Below the pieces are notes generated by a model. It was not told the origin of the DNA and did no database searches. It was given only the letters and a program-made list of their open reading frames with translations. DNA of 7,247 nucleotides, taken from NCBI GenBank assembly GCA_016209155.1, contig JACQWU010000062.1, positions 1 through 7,247 of the forward strand, read 5' to 3'. Of this stretch, positions 528 through 7,015 are shown one piece after another. Every line of letters begins with the position of its first letter. Position 1 is the stretch's first letter. Source of the stretch: Candidatus Desantisiibacteriota bacterium (GTDB lineage: Bacteria > JACRDZ01). Made by a program: the position numbers and the translations under genes.

Positions 528-1322
528 ATGGCTCAAATATTAAAAAAAACATATAATTTATTTTTTAATAATAACAGATTGCAAAGAATCTGGATATTAG
601 CAAAAACAGATTTTAAACAAAGATACTATGGCTCTTCGTTGGGTTTATTGTGGGCATTAATTAATCCATTATGTCAGTTGGTAATTTATTATTCAGTTTT
701 CACACTTATTTTTCAAGGGTCGGTTCCTAATTTTGCTTTATATATATTCTCAGGCTTAATTTTATGGATGTTTTTTACTGAAGCAACAAAAAAAGGTATA
801 CATGTTTTAAATTCAAAAAGATATCTTCTTGAGAACATTCCTATAAATAAGTTCGATATATACCTGTCTTCAGGAATTAGTGCATTCTTAGGTGTTTTAT
901 TTAACATATTGATTTTTTTCATTGTTAGTATTTTTTTTGATATAAAATATTCTTATAACCTGTTATTTTTACCTCTTATTTTAATTAATCTGTTCATTTT
1001 TGTTTTATCAGTTACATTCTTTTTATCAACAATTTATATCTATATCCGTGATTTGGATCATATCTGGGATATATTATTATTGGCGGGCCTTTGGACTATT
1101 CCTATTATCTGGGATCAAGCGTTCGTAATTAATAAACTCCAATTTCTCCTGTATTTACATCCATTGACAGGGATACTTATTAATATCAGAGAAATATTAT
1201 TGTATGATACATTTCCTGATCTATTTATTTTATTTTATGATTTTGTTTATAGTTTATTATTGTTTTTTACAGGATTGTTTTTTGTAAATAAGTTCTCTCA
1301 TAAAGCATTAGAAATGGTATAA
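528..1322 (+). CDS. wzm: O-antigen/capsule ABC exporter permease (Wzm type, ABC-2 family)
   Basis: This 264-residue integral membrane protein should form the inner-membrane channel that exports an undecaprenyl-linked polysaccharide. The N-terminus has a short amphipathic stretch and then RIWILAKTDFKQRYYGSSLG (residues 20-39), the hallmark of ABC-2 polysaccharide permeases. About six hydrophobic segments follow, near residues 38-62, 68-84, 113-137, 143-172, 178-195 and 229-253. The motif YIYIRDLDHIWDI (170-182) is the conserved cytoplasmic loop, and LHPLTGILINIRE (210-222) is also typical of the family. The length is normal. The ATG at 528 lies 4 bases after the methyltransferase stop with no clear Shine-Dalgarno. 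The stop is 1 base before the ATPase start, so the two are translationally linked. The gene appears intact. The symbol is assigned by family, not by a specific orthologue. Confidence 0.92.
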   Translation: MAQILKKTYNLFFNNNRLQRIWILAKTDFKQRYYGSSLGLLWALINPLCQLVIYYSVFTLIFQGSVPNFALYIFSGLILWMFFTEATKKGIHVLNSKRYLLENIPINKFDIYLSSGISAFLGVLFNILIFFIVSIFFDIKYSYNLLFLPLILINLFIFVLSVTFFLSTIYIYIRDLDHIWDILLLAGLWTIPIIWDQAFVINKLQFLLYLHPLTGILINIREILLYDTFPDLFILFYDFVYSLLLFFTGLFFVNKFSHKALEMV

Positions 1323-2082: not shown

Positions 2083-4431
2083 GTTTTTCACTTGATTTTG
2101 CACAGGATTGTAAGTACATTTCACCGGATGAAAATTTAGGGCTACGTAACAAATCAGAGGAAGGTGGTGAAAAAGATAATCCGAACAGTAACCAACTTCT
2201 CTTGATTCTATCTGTAATTGTAATATAAATAAAAATTCAGAAATCAACATCTATGGCTATCAAAAAGAAATCATAATAAAAGGGTGGGCGATTGATAAAT
2301 TATCAAATGATTTAGCCGGTGGTGTTTATATCGAAATTGACAATATTCTTTATAAAGCAAAATATGGTATTATAAGGCGGGATATTGCCGATTATTTTAA
2401 GGATAAAAAATATATAAAATGCGGATTTGAGCTAATACTTCCAAAAAAAACTATTAAAGACGGTACGTACTCATTCTCCTTAAAAATTTTAACAATACAC
2501 AAAAAGCAATATTATTCCGAAAATGAAACCACATTGATTCTATCAGGTTATCCATATTGGGATGAGGATAATAAAAATGCCGATAATTTAATTGAAATTA
2601 TTCGAAAAAAAGAATCAGATATAGACAATTTATATTATTTAATCCAGGAAAGAGATTCTTTTATCAATGCCCTGCATAATTCCTTATCATGGCGAATTAC
2701 ATTTCCTTTAAGAAAAGTGCTGGATTTTATTTTACTGATGAAAAAGGCTTTATACTATAGTTTTTTTACTATAAAAAATCAAGGTTTTAGCATATTTATT
2801 AAAAAGGCATATCTGTTTATTACAAAAGGCGCTGAAATTTTTTCAGGTGATGATATATATAAAAATTACTATCAGTTTTTACAGTTGCACAAATTAACCC
2901 GCACAGATGTTAATAAAATAATAGAAGAATGTGAAGATTTTGAATATAAACCAAAGATTTCCATAATAACACCCGTTTATAACGTAGAGCCAAAATGTCT
3001 GAACAAATGTATAAACTCTGTAATTGCACAATATTATCAAAACTGGGAACTTTGTTTATATGATGACGCTTCTACTAACTGCAGCACCATTAAATGCCTG
3101 GAGAAATGGCAAAATAAAGACGAAAGAATAAAAATAAAATTTGGTGAAAAAAATCTGAATATTTCCGGCGCATCCAATGAAGCAATAAAAATTGCCACAG
3201 GTGAATTTTTCGGTTTGCTTGATAATGACGACGAACTAACCCCTGATGCACTATATGAAATTGTTAATGCCTTAAATAAAGACAATTCTATAGATTTTAT
3301 ATACAGTGATGAAGACAAGCTGGAAATGAACGGAACTTTGTCTGGTCCTTACTTTAAATCAAACTTTAATTTGGATTTATTTCTATCGAATAATTATATC
3401 TGCCATTTTTCTGTGATCAGAAAAACTATTGGTAACAAAGCGGGATGGTTCAGAACAGGTTATGAAGGTTCACAGGATTATGACCTGTTTTTACGGATTA
3501 TTGACCATACGCGTAATATATATCATATTCCTAAAGTTTTATATCACTGGCGAAGGATACCGGGCAGTACGGCAAGCATGTATTATAATAAAAGCAATGC
3601 AAATATTGCCTCAATAAAAGCATTAACTGATTATATAAAAAGAAATAACATAAAGGGAGAAGTTGTCAATGGAATATGGCCCGGAACATTTAGAATAAAA
3701 AGAACTATTATCAGCGAATCATTGGTTAGTATTATTATCCCTTTTAATGACAAAGTAGAATTATTAAGAAGATGCGTTAATAGTATATTAAAGAAAACAG
3801 ATTACAGAAATTTTGAAATTATTCTGATAAGTAATAATAGCGAAAAAAAGGAAACTTTTAGTTTTGTAGAGAAATTAATACAGCAAAACAATAATATAAA
3901 ATATTTTGAGTATAATATACCTTTTAATTTTTCAAAAATTAACAATTGGGCGGTAGAACAGGCAAAAGGAGAATATATTTTATTGCTTAATAATGATATA
4001 GAAGTAATTTCCCGCGAGTGGTTAAATTCAATGGTCGAACATATTCAAAGAGAAGAAGTAGGCGCTGTTGGCGCATGCCTCTTATTCCCTGATAATACAA
4101 TACAACATGCAGGGATAATCTTAGGTGCAGGAGGGATTGCTAATAATGCTTTCTTAAGAAAGCATAAAAGTGATAAGTTGCATTTAACGATGTTGATTTA
4201 TCGCTTAAAATCAGGAAACAAGGTTATTTAATAGTTTACACACCATCTGCATTGCTGTATCATCATGAATCGGCGACAAGAGGGTATGAAACCACATACG
4301 AAAAAAAATTACGGCTTGAAAAGGAATCTCAATATATGATTTCCAAATGGGGAGAATTTATTAAAAATGACCCATATTATAATCCAAATTTAACAAGAGA
4401 AAAGCTTGATTTTAGTTTAAAGATATTTTAA
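2079..4431 (+). pseudogene. Two-domain family 2 glycosyltransferase, broken by start loss, frameshift and deletion
   Basis: The gene is read in three frames. The 5' part (2079-2228) starts at ATA and encodes SFSLDFAQDCKYISPDENLG. The main part (open from 2192, stop at 4229-4231) contains: a GWAID-type accessory domain (about 2240-2500); a charged, probably coiled-coil stretch; the linker motif NSLSWRITFPLR (2678-2713); a first GT-A domain from ISIITPVYN (2957), with LLDNDDEL (acidic motif at 3221-3235) and QDYDLFLR (3473 on); and a second GT-A domain from LVSIIIPFND (3722), with LLLNNDIEV (about 3980) and TIQHAGIILG (about 4097). The 3' part (4177-4431) reads VAFNDVDLSLKIRKQGY, then YHHESATRGYE, and ends PYYNPNLTREKLDFSLKIF, the normal end of this family. 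Intact homologues have roughly 45-50 residues between the GGxAxxAF region and VAFNDVD, including a CxxVRxxxFxxxGGFDE stretch. Only about nine remain here. The first domain is complete; the second is disrupted. The ancestral role was probably adding consecutive sugars to the lipid-linked glycan in the cytoplasm. No good in-frame ATG lies upstream of the main segment. Confidence 0.85.
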
Positions 4432-4680: not shown

Positions 4681-5054
4681 ATGTGTGATATTATTCATAT
4701 TGAAAACGTAATATCAAATTATTTTACGTTGAATCTTAATAAGAATGAGATTGATTATAAAACACTGTACAAGTTTAAAAATCGTATTGAAAAAAATTCA
4801 GTGAACAGAATAAATGTGTGTTTATTGATTTTTCAAATGCCTCATTGATAAATACAGCCATACATAATTCTGAATTTTTTACAATTAAAAATGATAAAAT
4901 AATCTATAACCCCAATGATAATAAAAAAAAATTATTAGAAGGTATTGGGGTTTATTTTAATGCAAAGATACCATATCGTGTTAAAAATGACTTTCCTGAA
5001 ATAATGAAAGAGGTTAACACTGAATTAAATCCTGAATATGAATCTGTCTGCTAA
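4681..5054 (+). pseudogene. Small unrecognised protein, split by an indel in a TG repeat, paired with the HD gene
   Basis: From the ATG at 4681 the frame encodes MCDIIHIENVISNYFTLNLN through KNRIEKNSVNRINV, then goes off into a short tail ending at PMPH-like residues and a stop near 4845. From about 4818 another frame continues sensibly with FIDFSNASLINTAIHN and runs to a stop at 5052-5054. The switch falls on ATGTGTGTTT (4814-4823). Removing one TG unit joins the halves as RINVFIDFSNASL, giving about 123 residues; adding one base would also work. The acidic, hydrophobic-strand pattern xVFIDFSNAS faintly recalls STAS-like or DUF4325 proteins, but the rest does not clearly match, so I do not assign a function. 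The 3' end overlaps the HD gene start by 17 bases, which implies translational coupling and a functional link. It could be a true pseudogene or a sequencing error. Confidence 0.6.
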
Positions 5055-5934
5055 TTGTAAAATTTTTAATGATGCAGTTCATGGATTTATTTATTTGAGT
5101 AATGAGTATTGCGAAAAAATAATTGACACCCCTCATTTTCAGCGTTTAAAAAGATTAGAACAGACAAATGTCAGACCATTATATCCATGTGCACATCATG
5201 ATAGGTTTGTGCATTCTCTTGGCACTTATCATTTAGGATCAATTGTTTCAGAAGCGGTTTACGAGAATTCTCATAAGCATTTTCCAGATTTAGATTGGAC
5301 TATATGTAGAAGAAGTTTCGAAATAGCTTGTTTATTGCACGATATTGGACATGCTCCCTTTTCTCATACCTTTGAAATGTACTATGAAGAAGGAGATAAT
5401 TTAAATAAATTACTTACAGACGGCAGTTTTATAAATAGCCCAGGACATAATCCTGAAAGAAATGAGTTTTTTTCAGACTATAATAATACTACACCGAATC
5501 AAAAACAGCATGAAAAAGTAAGCGCGATATTAGTTCTTACAACTTATTACCCGATTCTAACAGACTTAAGTGCCGATCCTTTCTTAGTTGCAAGAATGAT
5601 TCTTGGATTATGTTATATTGATTACAAAAGAAATAATCATAAGAAACTTTACAACTGTTTCATTGGTCTATTAAATGGAAAAACTATTGATGTAGATAAA
5701 CTTGATTATATTGCAAGAGATCAATGGGCTACTGGTCATATTTTGAAAAGCATCAGCATTGAGCGTTTGTTAAGTTCGGTTTATATTAAAAAAATTAATG
5801 ATAATTATGTTAGTTGTTTTCATAAACGTGCAGTAAATGAGATATTTACTTTGATTGAGGCAAGAAAATCAATGGATGTTAGATTTTATGGTCATCTTAT
5901 TTCAAAATCAAGTCAAGATAAAGTTAGCATATAA
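5038..5934 (+). CDS. HD-domain phosphohydrolase, SAMHD1/COG1078-like, short C-terminus
   Basis: This 298-residue protein resembles SAMHD1 and the bacterial COG1078 (YdhJ-type) family. It starts KIFNDAVHGFIYL (residues 8-20), the usual family opening. Aligned by eye to SAMHD1, the metal ligands are H59 (in RFVHSLGT), H101 and D102 (LLHDIGHAPFSH) and D220 (in VDKLDY). Active-site positions H105, H110 and H158 (KQHEKVS) are present, as are Y224, D228, R276 and Y284. E113 replaces the SAMHD1 aspartate D218. A dNTP triphosphohydrolase or related nucleotide phosphohydrolase activity is therefore plausible but not proven. Bacterial relatives are usually about 400 residues or more. This one ends 14 residues after Y284 with SKSSQDKVSI, and no continuation is seen in the other frames, so the C-terminal part is missing, probably by deletion. 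The ATG at 5038 lies inside the end of the small upstream gene. No Shine-Dalgarno is seen. The protein has no obvious role in glycan synthesis. Confidence 0.85.
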   Translation: MNLSANCKIFNDAVHGFIYLSNEYCEKIIDTPHFQRLKRLEQTNVRPLYPCAHHDRFVHSLGTYHLGSIVSEAVYENSHKHFPDLDWTICRRSFEIACLLHDIGHAPFSHTFEMYYEEGDNLNKLLTDGSFINSPGHNPERNEFFSDYNNTTPNQKQHEKVSAILVLTTYYPILTDLSADPFLVARMILGLCYIDYKRNNHKKLYNCFIGLLNGKTIDVDKLDYIARDQWATGHILKSISIERLLSSVYIKKINDNYVSCFHKRAVNEIFTLIEARKSMDVRFYGHLISKSSQDKVSI

Positions 5935-6019: not shown

Positions 6020-6961
6020 ATGAATTCTCTGATAAATAATGGAATAATTATTCTAAACAAAAACAACATTTCGGAAGGAAAACCGACTGTTATTGTGTTA
6101 GGCTTTGCAAGAAGCGGTACAACTATGACAGCAAGCGTACTACAGGCGATGGGAGTTTTTATGGGAGGAAAAAACGCGGGTGTTGTGATAGAAGACCCCG
6201 ATGTGTTCAATATCCTCGAAAACAAAGATCGTATAAAAGAGTTTAGAATGTTAGTCGAAAAAAGAAATCAAGAGCATGACATTTGGGGGTGGAAAAGACC
6301 CCGTACAATAGATTATACAGACCTATTTATTGACAAAGTGCGAAACCCTCATCTAATCTTTATGTTTAGGGATGCCCTTGCTATTGCCGTTAGAAATCAA
6401 ATTGCTATTGAAGCCGATGTGCTGGCAACCTTAAAAGATGCGCAAAGAGGATACACCAAACTTATTGACTTTGTAACTAAAACCAAGCTGCCATGCATGT
6501 TAGCATCATACGAAAAAGCCATCCTGAAGAAATCATTCTTTGTTCAATCATTAGCAGATTTCGTCGGTATCCACCTATCGAAAGAACAACTAACAATTGC
6601 AGAAAATGCAATTATTTTAGATAAAAAAGAATATATAGAATCTGCCAGATTAATATTTTATACAGGAGTATTAGATAACGTAAAAAACGGCATTATCAGT
6701 GGATGGGCAAAAAGAAAAGATGAAAGCAATCCGGTTTCTATCAACATCATTGTCAACAATAAAGTGGTAATTACAGTTATCGCTGATAAATACAGGAATG
6801 ATCTTGAAAAAAATGGAATTGGTAACGGGAAACATGCTTTTTCTTTTAACCTGACTCCTTATCTGCCAGAAAAAAAGAAATACACGATACAAGCAAAGGT
6901 AAGTGAGTCTGATTATGAACTTAGAAAAAGCCCATGGGAGATTAATCTAACAAAAACATAA
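6020..6961 (+). CDS. Sulfotransferase with C-terminal GWA-type accessory domain
   Basis: This 313-residue protein has two parts. Residues 22-200 form a sulfotransferase domain. The 5'-phosphosulfate-binding loop is GFARSGTTMT (28-37), and the 3'-phosphate-binding segment is FRDALAIAVRN (116-126), where the usual serine position is N126. WGWKRP (89-94) and SYEKAI (163-168) match, from memory, sulfotransferase-like proteins in O-antigen loci. Residues 216-305 form a beta-rich domain, GVLDNVKNGIISGWAKR, then INIIVNNKVV, IADKYRNDLEKNGIG and HAFSFNLTPYLP. This resembles the domain at the N-terminus of the broken glycosyltransferase. The likely role is PAPS-dependent sulfation of a sugar in the exported polysaccharide, in the cytoplasm. 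PAPS synthesis genes are not in the window. No Shine-Dalgarno is seen; the ATG at 6020 leaves a 21-residue lead before the first strand. The gene appears intact. Some members of this family could act on a different donor, so the substrate is uncertain. Confidence 0.82.
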   Translation: MNSLINNGIIILNKNNISEGKPTVIVLGFARSGTTMTASVLQAMGVFMGGKNAGVVIEDPDVFNILENKDRIKEFRMLVEKRNQEHDIWGWKRPRTIDYTDLFIDKVRNPHLIFMFRDALAIAVRNQIAIEADVLATLKDAQRGYTKLIDFVTKTKLPCMLASYEKAILKKSFFVQSLADFVGIHLSKEQLTIAENAIILDKKEYIESARLIFYTGVLDNVKNGIISGWAKRKDESNPVSINIIVNNKVVITVIADKYRNDLEKNGIGNGKHAFSFNLTPYLPEKKKYTIQAKVSESDYELRKSPWEINLTKT

Positions 6962-6975
6962 AAAAAGGCGAAATT

Positions 6976-7015
6976 TGGAATGTAGAGACGTTGCATGCAA
7001 CGTCTCTACATTCCA
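6976..7015. repeat. Perfect 40-bp palindrome (REP/MITE-like intergenic repeat)
   Basis: The left arm TGGAATGTAGAGACGTTGCA (6976-6995) is followed directly by its exact reverse complement (6996-7015), with GCATGC at the centre and no spacer. It starts 14 bases after the sulfotransferase stop and ends 25 bases before the next ATG. Its GC content is above that of its surroundings. The core GTAGAGACG...CGTCTCTAC resembles short dispersed palindromes that I recall from intergenic regions of several bacterial phyla, including Bacteroidota. That recollection is not verified. It could fold into a hairpin in RNA and shield the upstream 3' end. No T-run follows, so it is not a classical terminator. Confidence 0.85.

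Follow-up and report, generated by a model that had tools for sequence, protein, structure and literature searches.

The C-terminal carbohydrate-binding domain of some Wzt proteins is an Ig-like sandwich of the ABC-exported polysaccharide pathway, and in E. coli O9a it recognises the finished polymer. The module described here would likewise be an Ig-like sandwich in an ABC-export pathway, but it sits on a glycosyltransferase (copy A) and a sulfotransferase (copy B) rather than on Wzt, and Pfam Wzt_C matches neither copy. The FnIII-like modules that accompany certain polysaccharide hydrolases (N-terminal module of chitinase A, chitinase A1, GH84C and SleM) lie near the structural model of copy B (Z about 6) and, like this module, are accessory domains found beside glycan-cleaving enzymes. 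Their identity to copy B of about 7-16% and Z below 8 indicate a shared arrangement only, and profile searches of the PDB detected no sequence relationship between B and these modules.

Pfam Big_7 (PF17957), a bacterial Ig domain, resembles the module in that two A-type relatives exceed its curated cutoff of 24.1 bits over the stretch matched by the A profile: L033 reaches 60.4 bits and L004 reaches 25.7. Searched with Big_7, the two proteins of the locus give no match even at E 10. Unlike Big_7, the present family sits on biosynthetic glycan enzymes and has the signature GWA / YG..R.DV / SGF or A..YR.DL..G.G.HGF. Neither copy matches Pfam, NCBIfam or PHROGs, and a limited search of open-access literature found no paper describing the module on glycosyltransferases or sulfotransferases. 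Novelty was judged against these three databases and open-access papers. On that basis, the module is a probable Ig-like domain, carried by many enzymes, without a Pfam or NCBIfam entry of its own.

The locus and its two module-bearing enzymes

The window, which is the whole 7,247-base stretch that was analysed, holds a polysaccharide locus. Alongside a partial ORF, the locus encodes a Wzm/Wzt-type ABC exporter and a tandem-GT2 glycosyltransferase, together with an HD-domain protein and a sulfotransferase-like protein (Table 1). The window comes from a draft genome of 3.08 Mb that is 79% complete and belongs to a sparsely sampled phylum. In NCBIfam, the permease matches the galactan export permease model NF050109 (E 1.6e-12, under the model cutoff) and the ATPase also matches teichoic-acid/galactan export ATPase models. 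Like the ATPases of galactan-type exporters, this Wzt-like protein is without a C-terminal carbohydrate-binding domain.

Table 1. Features of the window and carriers of the module in related sequences (L numbers denote loci).
Feature	Position or locus	Strand	Basis
ABC-2 type permease (Wzm-like)	528..1322	+	PF01061 E 6.6e-8
ABC transporter ATPase (Wzt-like), 252 aa	1324..2082	+	PF00005 E 1.9e-17
Glycosyltransferase open frame: module A, linker, GT2, second GT2	2195..4231	+	PF00535 E 1.2e-50, PF13641 E 5.4e-13
Copy A, predicted N-terminal Ig-like domain of tandem-GT2 glycosyltransferase (GWAID...YG..RRDIADYF...CGF)	2240..2542	+	domA profile match
Copy A peptides	GGVYIEIDNILYKAKYG 2318-2368; IIRRDIADYF 2369-2398; CGFELILP 2420-2443	+	located in window
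Sulfotransferase-like protein, 313 aa, C-terminal module B	6020..6961	+	Sulfotransfer_3 E 1.4e-4
Copy B, predicted C-terminal Ig-like domain of sulfotransferase (GWAKRK...ADKYRNDLEKNGIGNGKHAF)	6659..6937	+	domB profile match; AlphaFold2 pLDDT 87.5
Copy B peptides	VSINIIVNNKVV 6734-6769; ADKYRNDLEKNG 6782-6817; HAFSFNLTP 6833-6859	+	located in window
GT2 tandem, N-terminal module	window, L106, L107, L112, L049		
Methyltransferase-A-GT2-GT2	L104		
GT2, N-terminal B	L019		
GT2 behind TPRs, as many as four copies in tandem (two of them clear, the others weak or judged by eye)	L057		
GT4, N-terminal B	L008, L010		
GT92/GT2_4, C-terminal B	L017		
Methyltransferase with two A	L034		
Polytopic membrane proteins, about 590-630 aa, C-terminal A	L003, L028, L030, L105		
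Proteins of about 190-230 aa ending in A	L036, L074-L079, others		
GH25 with B	L021		
VanY with B	L018		
Amidase_2-B-LysM, viral-contig lysin	L051:3464-4726	+	
CHAP-B, viral-contig lysin	L055:3260-4633	+	
Amidase_2-B, viral-contig lysin	L064:258-1880	+	
Megaprotein, 2,156 aa: Sulfotransfer_3, coiled coil, two A, GT2-GT2, GT4 and methyltransferase	L110:1571-8038	+	
Megaprotein, 1,984 aa: Sulfotransfer_3, coiled coil, two A, GT2-GT2, GT4	L111:2009-7960	+	

Copy A and the GT2 domains share one open, stop-free frame of 679 codons, in which the domA match covers residues 17-117 of the ORF starting at 2192 and the first GT2 domain lies at about 2960-3420. Ahead of the module, no in-frame ATG or GTG is present between 2084 and 2240, and coding-like sequence runs on upstream in a different frame. 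Near 4160-4231 a break disrupts the second GT2 domain, which lacks a stretch there and has its remainder in another frame, at 4252-4431. The gene therefore looks damaged, although the damage may be an assembly error. The catalytic part is 36-49% identical to cyanobacterial tandem-GT2 proteins, among which L106 (47%) and others have an A-type module upstream. Because relatives such as L106 show the same order in intact frames, the A-GT2-GT2 architecture can be regarded as genuine.

The sulfotransferase-like protein scores 22.6 bits against Sulfotransfer_3, under the curated Pfam cutoff of 27 that was taken as the mark of a PAPS-dependent sulfotransferase, and contains the 5' nucleotide-binding loop GFARSGTT. 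Two megaproteins, L111 and L110, match its catalytic part (E 1e-10 and 1e-9, respectively) through their own sulfotransferase region, where Sulfotransfer_3 itself scores 30-32 bits, above the cutoff. These matches support its assignment as a Sulfotransfer_3 relative.

The interval between the two enzymes contains a pair of small ORFs with a broken frame (4681-5054), as well as the HD-domain protein (5038-5934), which has a weak likeness to dGTP triphosphohydrolases. The ORFs at 4681-5934 are out of place in a polysaccharide locus and may form an inserted cassette. A perfect 40-bp palindrome, TGGAATGTAGAGACGTTGCATGCAACGTCTCTACATTCCA, stands at 6976-7015, directly 3' of the sulfotransferase; allowing up to three mismatches, its 30-bp core occurs once in the genome.

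Homology and predicted fold of the two copies

The original prediction read the same accessory domain into both enzymes from a handful of peptides, all of which are present, including GWA at nucleotides 2282 and 6701. The exact spacing that it gave, A-x-[YD]-x-x-R-x-D, fits neither copy: the glycosyltransferase has A-x-Y-x-x-x-R-x-D and the sulfotransferase A-x-x-x-R-x-D. With flexible gaps (GWA, V-x-I-x-[ID], A, R-x-D, [GA]F), the pattern occurs at exactly two sites when the window is read in all six frames, both of them the expected ones. Shuffling the two proteins 10,000 times never produced this loose form; written post hoc, it is weak on its own.

Direct comparison of the segments says little, with a pairwise identity of about 19% and a BLASTP alignment that is shifted and insignificant (E 0.12). 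Relatives of A and B were therefore gathered separately before their profiles were compared, the A-type by whole-genome searches and the B-type by plasmid tblastn followed by whole-genome profile searches and viral contigs. A profile scan of genome contigs that started from an alignment of just two rows proved overly restrictive and returned one locus, and the MAFFT alignments A9 and A10 misaligned the C-terminal half, so that A11 was used instead.

In hhalign, 13 A-type sequences (profile A4) matched 10 B-type sequences (A5) over 78 columns with a probability of 93.1, a score of 42.3 and an E-value of 3.3e-7; 200 column shuffles scored a mean of 10.7 and at most 18.0, and reversed profiles 9-10. 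The shuffled controls are used because hhalign E-values for single pairs are not calibrated against a database. With the window sequences left out, 38 cyanobacterial A sequences, themselves gathered using the A4 profile, matched 20 B sequences with a probability of 95.6 and a score of 49.6 (shuffles at most 21.6), and A4 against all B gave a probability of 96.8. Across tests, scores were 42-57 and the maxima of the controls, 200 column shuffles each, were 18 and 22. Weak domB cross-matches on A proteins all fall over the A domain. Intermediates also bridge the two branches: L019, found via the B profile, reads RPDIARYFNSQGFHGLELKIP, near the A signature, and L057 is another. An eight-sequence bridging alignment keeps G-W and R-x-D invariant, and G-W, R-x-D and mostly a following F are common to A and B; residues conserved in both branches may serve the structure instead of forming a binding site.

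The two window copies could in principle be unrelated beta-sandwiches, alike by chance or convergence, as the pairwise BLASTP value and the lack of a common database family might suggest. Profile matches of 93-97% probability between separately gathered relatives, far above the shuffled controls, together with L019 and L057, make this very improbable, and convergence was set aside on the profile evidence. Judged by sequence, A and B are almost certainly homologous domains that belong to different branches of the module family, which upholds the claim of a shared domain on both enzymes.

The structure of copy B was predicted with AlphaFold2 from five aligned sequences, the window copy plus four proteins from viral contigs, of which three are recognisable as lysins. 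The model (mean pLDDT 87.5, pTM 0.77) has seven strands, at residues 2-7, 10-14, 24-30, 33-40, 56-62, 75-79 and 85-91, with a single short helix where the R-x-D-L motif lies, in agreement with the beta-sandwich that had been expected; this agreement concerns copy B. SleM is the best Foldseek match in the PDB, and the GH84C FnIII, chitinase A1 FnIII and chitinase A N-terminal modules are also among the first matches, with weak E-values (best 0.012). VIA-align returned mostly Ig/FnIII-like structures, with Z of 6 to 7.7 over 67-86 residues; the rows spanning model residues 1-93 were also mostly FnIII/Ig-like, every Z being below 8. The nearest solved structures thus belong to the FnIII/Ig-like class, and chitinases, cellulosomal enzymes and the muramidase SleM supply many of them. 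These matches to the model support a fold class for B, and nothing finer such as a named FnIII, Ig or CBM family. For copy A, an Ig-like fold is suggested by its homology to B and by the relatives that reach Big_7, and an Ig/FnIII-like fold for both copies is very probable.

A fold of the full-length sulfotransferase without an alignment was unusable (pLDDT 33). Sequence-profile searches of the PDB gave chance-level matches only, among them the 8c4d amidase (E 0.77); a fluorinase match consisting of a 20-residue RTDLEKAGIGQGKH stretch was rejected as a short coincidence.

Carriers of the module

The suggestion that the module is mobile is borne out by the survey of carriers, in which it is N-terminal, C-terminal, internal or tandem on many enzymes (Table 1). 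Those catalytic partners that can be identified act on glycan polymers, both within the cell and beyond it. Some carriers are without an identified enzyme, such as proteins of about 190 aa, L009, L016 and L020, and no Pfam family was found for the polytopic membrane carriers, which we think are GT-C-like. In the source genome, at 79% completeness, a two-branch profile finds just the two window copies above noise.

A-type copies are present in 47 of 195 sampled relatives of genome G050, a group whose gene content suggests that it is cyanobacterial, often as two or three different carriers per cluster. The megaproteins L110 and L111 are probably cyanobacterial as well, and over the GT2 part they share 43-44% identity with the window glycosyltransferase. 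They join both window enzyme types in one chain with the module between, which supports the view that the two enzymes act on one product.

Searches of phages and plasmids by tblastn with A gave no match, and neither did phages searched with B; IMG/VR viral contigs did yield lysins with B. On these lysins, B may represent an endolysin cell-wall module that has so far gone uncatalogued.

Candidate roles of the module

A single small module of about 80-100 residues, very probably an Ig/FnIII-like beta-sandwich, has spread among enzymes of bacterial glycan-polymer metabolism, where it would serve as an accessory domain that holds or positions the polymer, or a lipid-linked intermediate, beside the catalytic domain. 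The tandem-GT2 enzyme and the sulfotransferase of the Wzm/Wzt locus would then act on the same chain prior to export. Taken as a whole, a homologous, mobile Ig/FnIII-like module that holds glycan polymer at the catalytic domain is the best explanation, to which we assign a probability of roughly 0.5. Both roles in the original prediction, glycan binding and docking to a common complex, are compatible with the range of carriers.

Docking would mean that the homologous Ig-like domain acts by protein-protein contact, bringing enzymes together or forming dimers. Separate enzymes of this locus carry the module, A on the glycosyltransferase and B on the sulfotransferase, and L110 and L111 join sulfotransferase and GT2-GT2 covalently through two A copies, which a module that keeps the enzymes together would predict. 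In several cyanobacterial gene clusters, two or three distinct proteins with an A copy are neighbours (L104, L105 and L106), and the best Foldseek match, SleM, is an enzyme whose dimerisation is reported to be important for activity (PMC6403190). However, the viral-contig lysins and the secreted GH25 and VanY proteins have B without an evident B-carrying partner, and window A and B come from different branches; docking seems rather unlikely. An inert spacer or folding aid without a specific ligand, like many FnIII/Ig linkers, would agree with the tandem copies (L057, L033 and L110), the variable position, the general Ig/FnIII modules matched in VIA-align and invariant residues that are perhaps structural. 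Yet terminal copies, on the proteins of about 190 aa, the sulfotransferase and the membrane carriers, have nothing to space, and the GW / R-x-D / F signature is retained across phyla; this role is unlikely.

Glycan-chain holding is preferred because glycan polymers are what the carriers work on wherever their enzyme can be identified, and polymer holding near the active site explains the carrier range best. We infer that the module contacts glycan and that one polymer is seen by the two window copies alike, with a tentative leaning towards holding over docking or spacing. A more far-reaching and improbable version is that a widespread, uncatalogued family marks enzymes of one polymer, with a copy on the glycosyltransferase, sulfotransferase, methyltransferase and membrane-bound carriers alike that grips the growing chain, and that phage lysins and murein hydrolases took up the module to grip peptidoglycan.

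According to PMC8205485, cyanobacteria were the only bacteria from which sulfated polysaccharides had been reported, and the module is an added handle on bacterial polysaccharide sulfation outside that group, a scarcely studied subject. Being common to glycosyltransferases, sulfotransferases, methyltransferases, membrane carriers and lysins, it aids in finding the enzymes of one polymer. The terminal regions of multi-domain capsule and exopolysaccharide glycosyltransferases are often unannotated, and for these the module offers a common name and a testable role.
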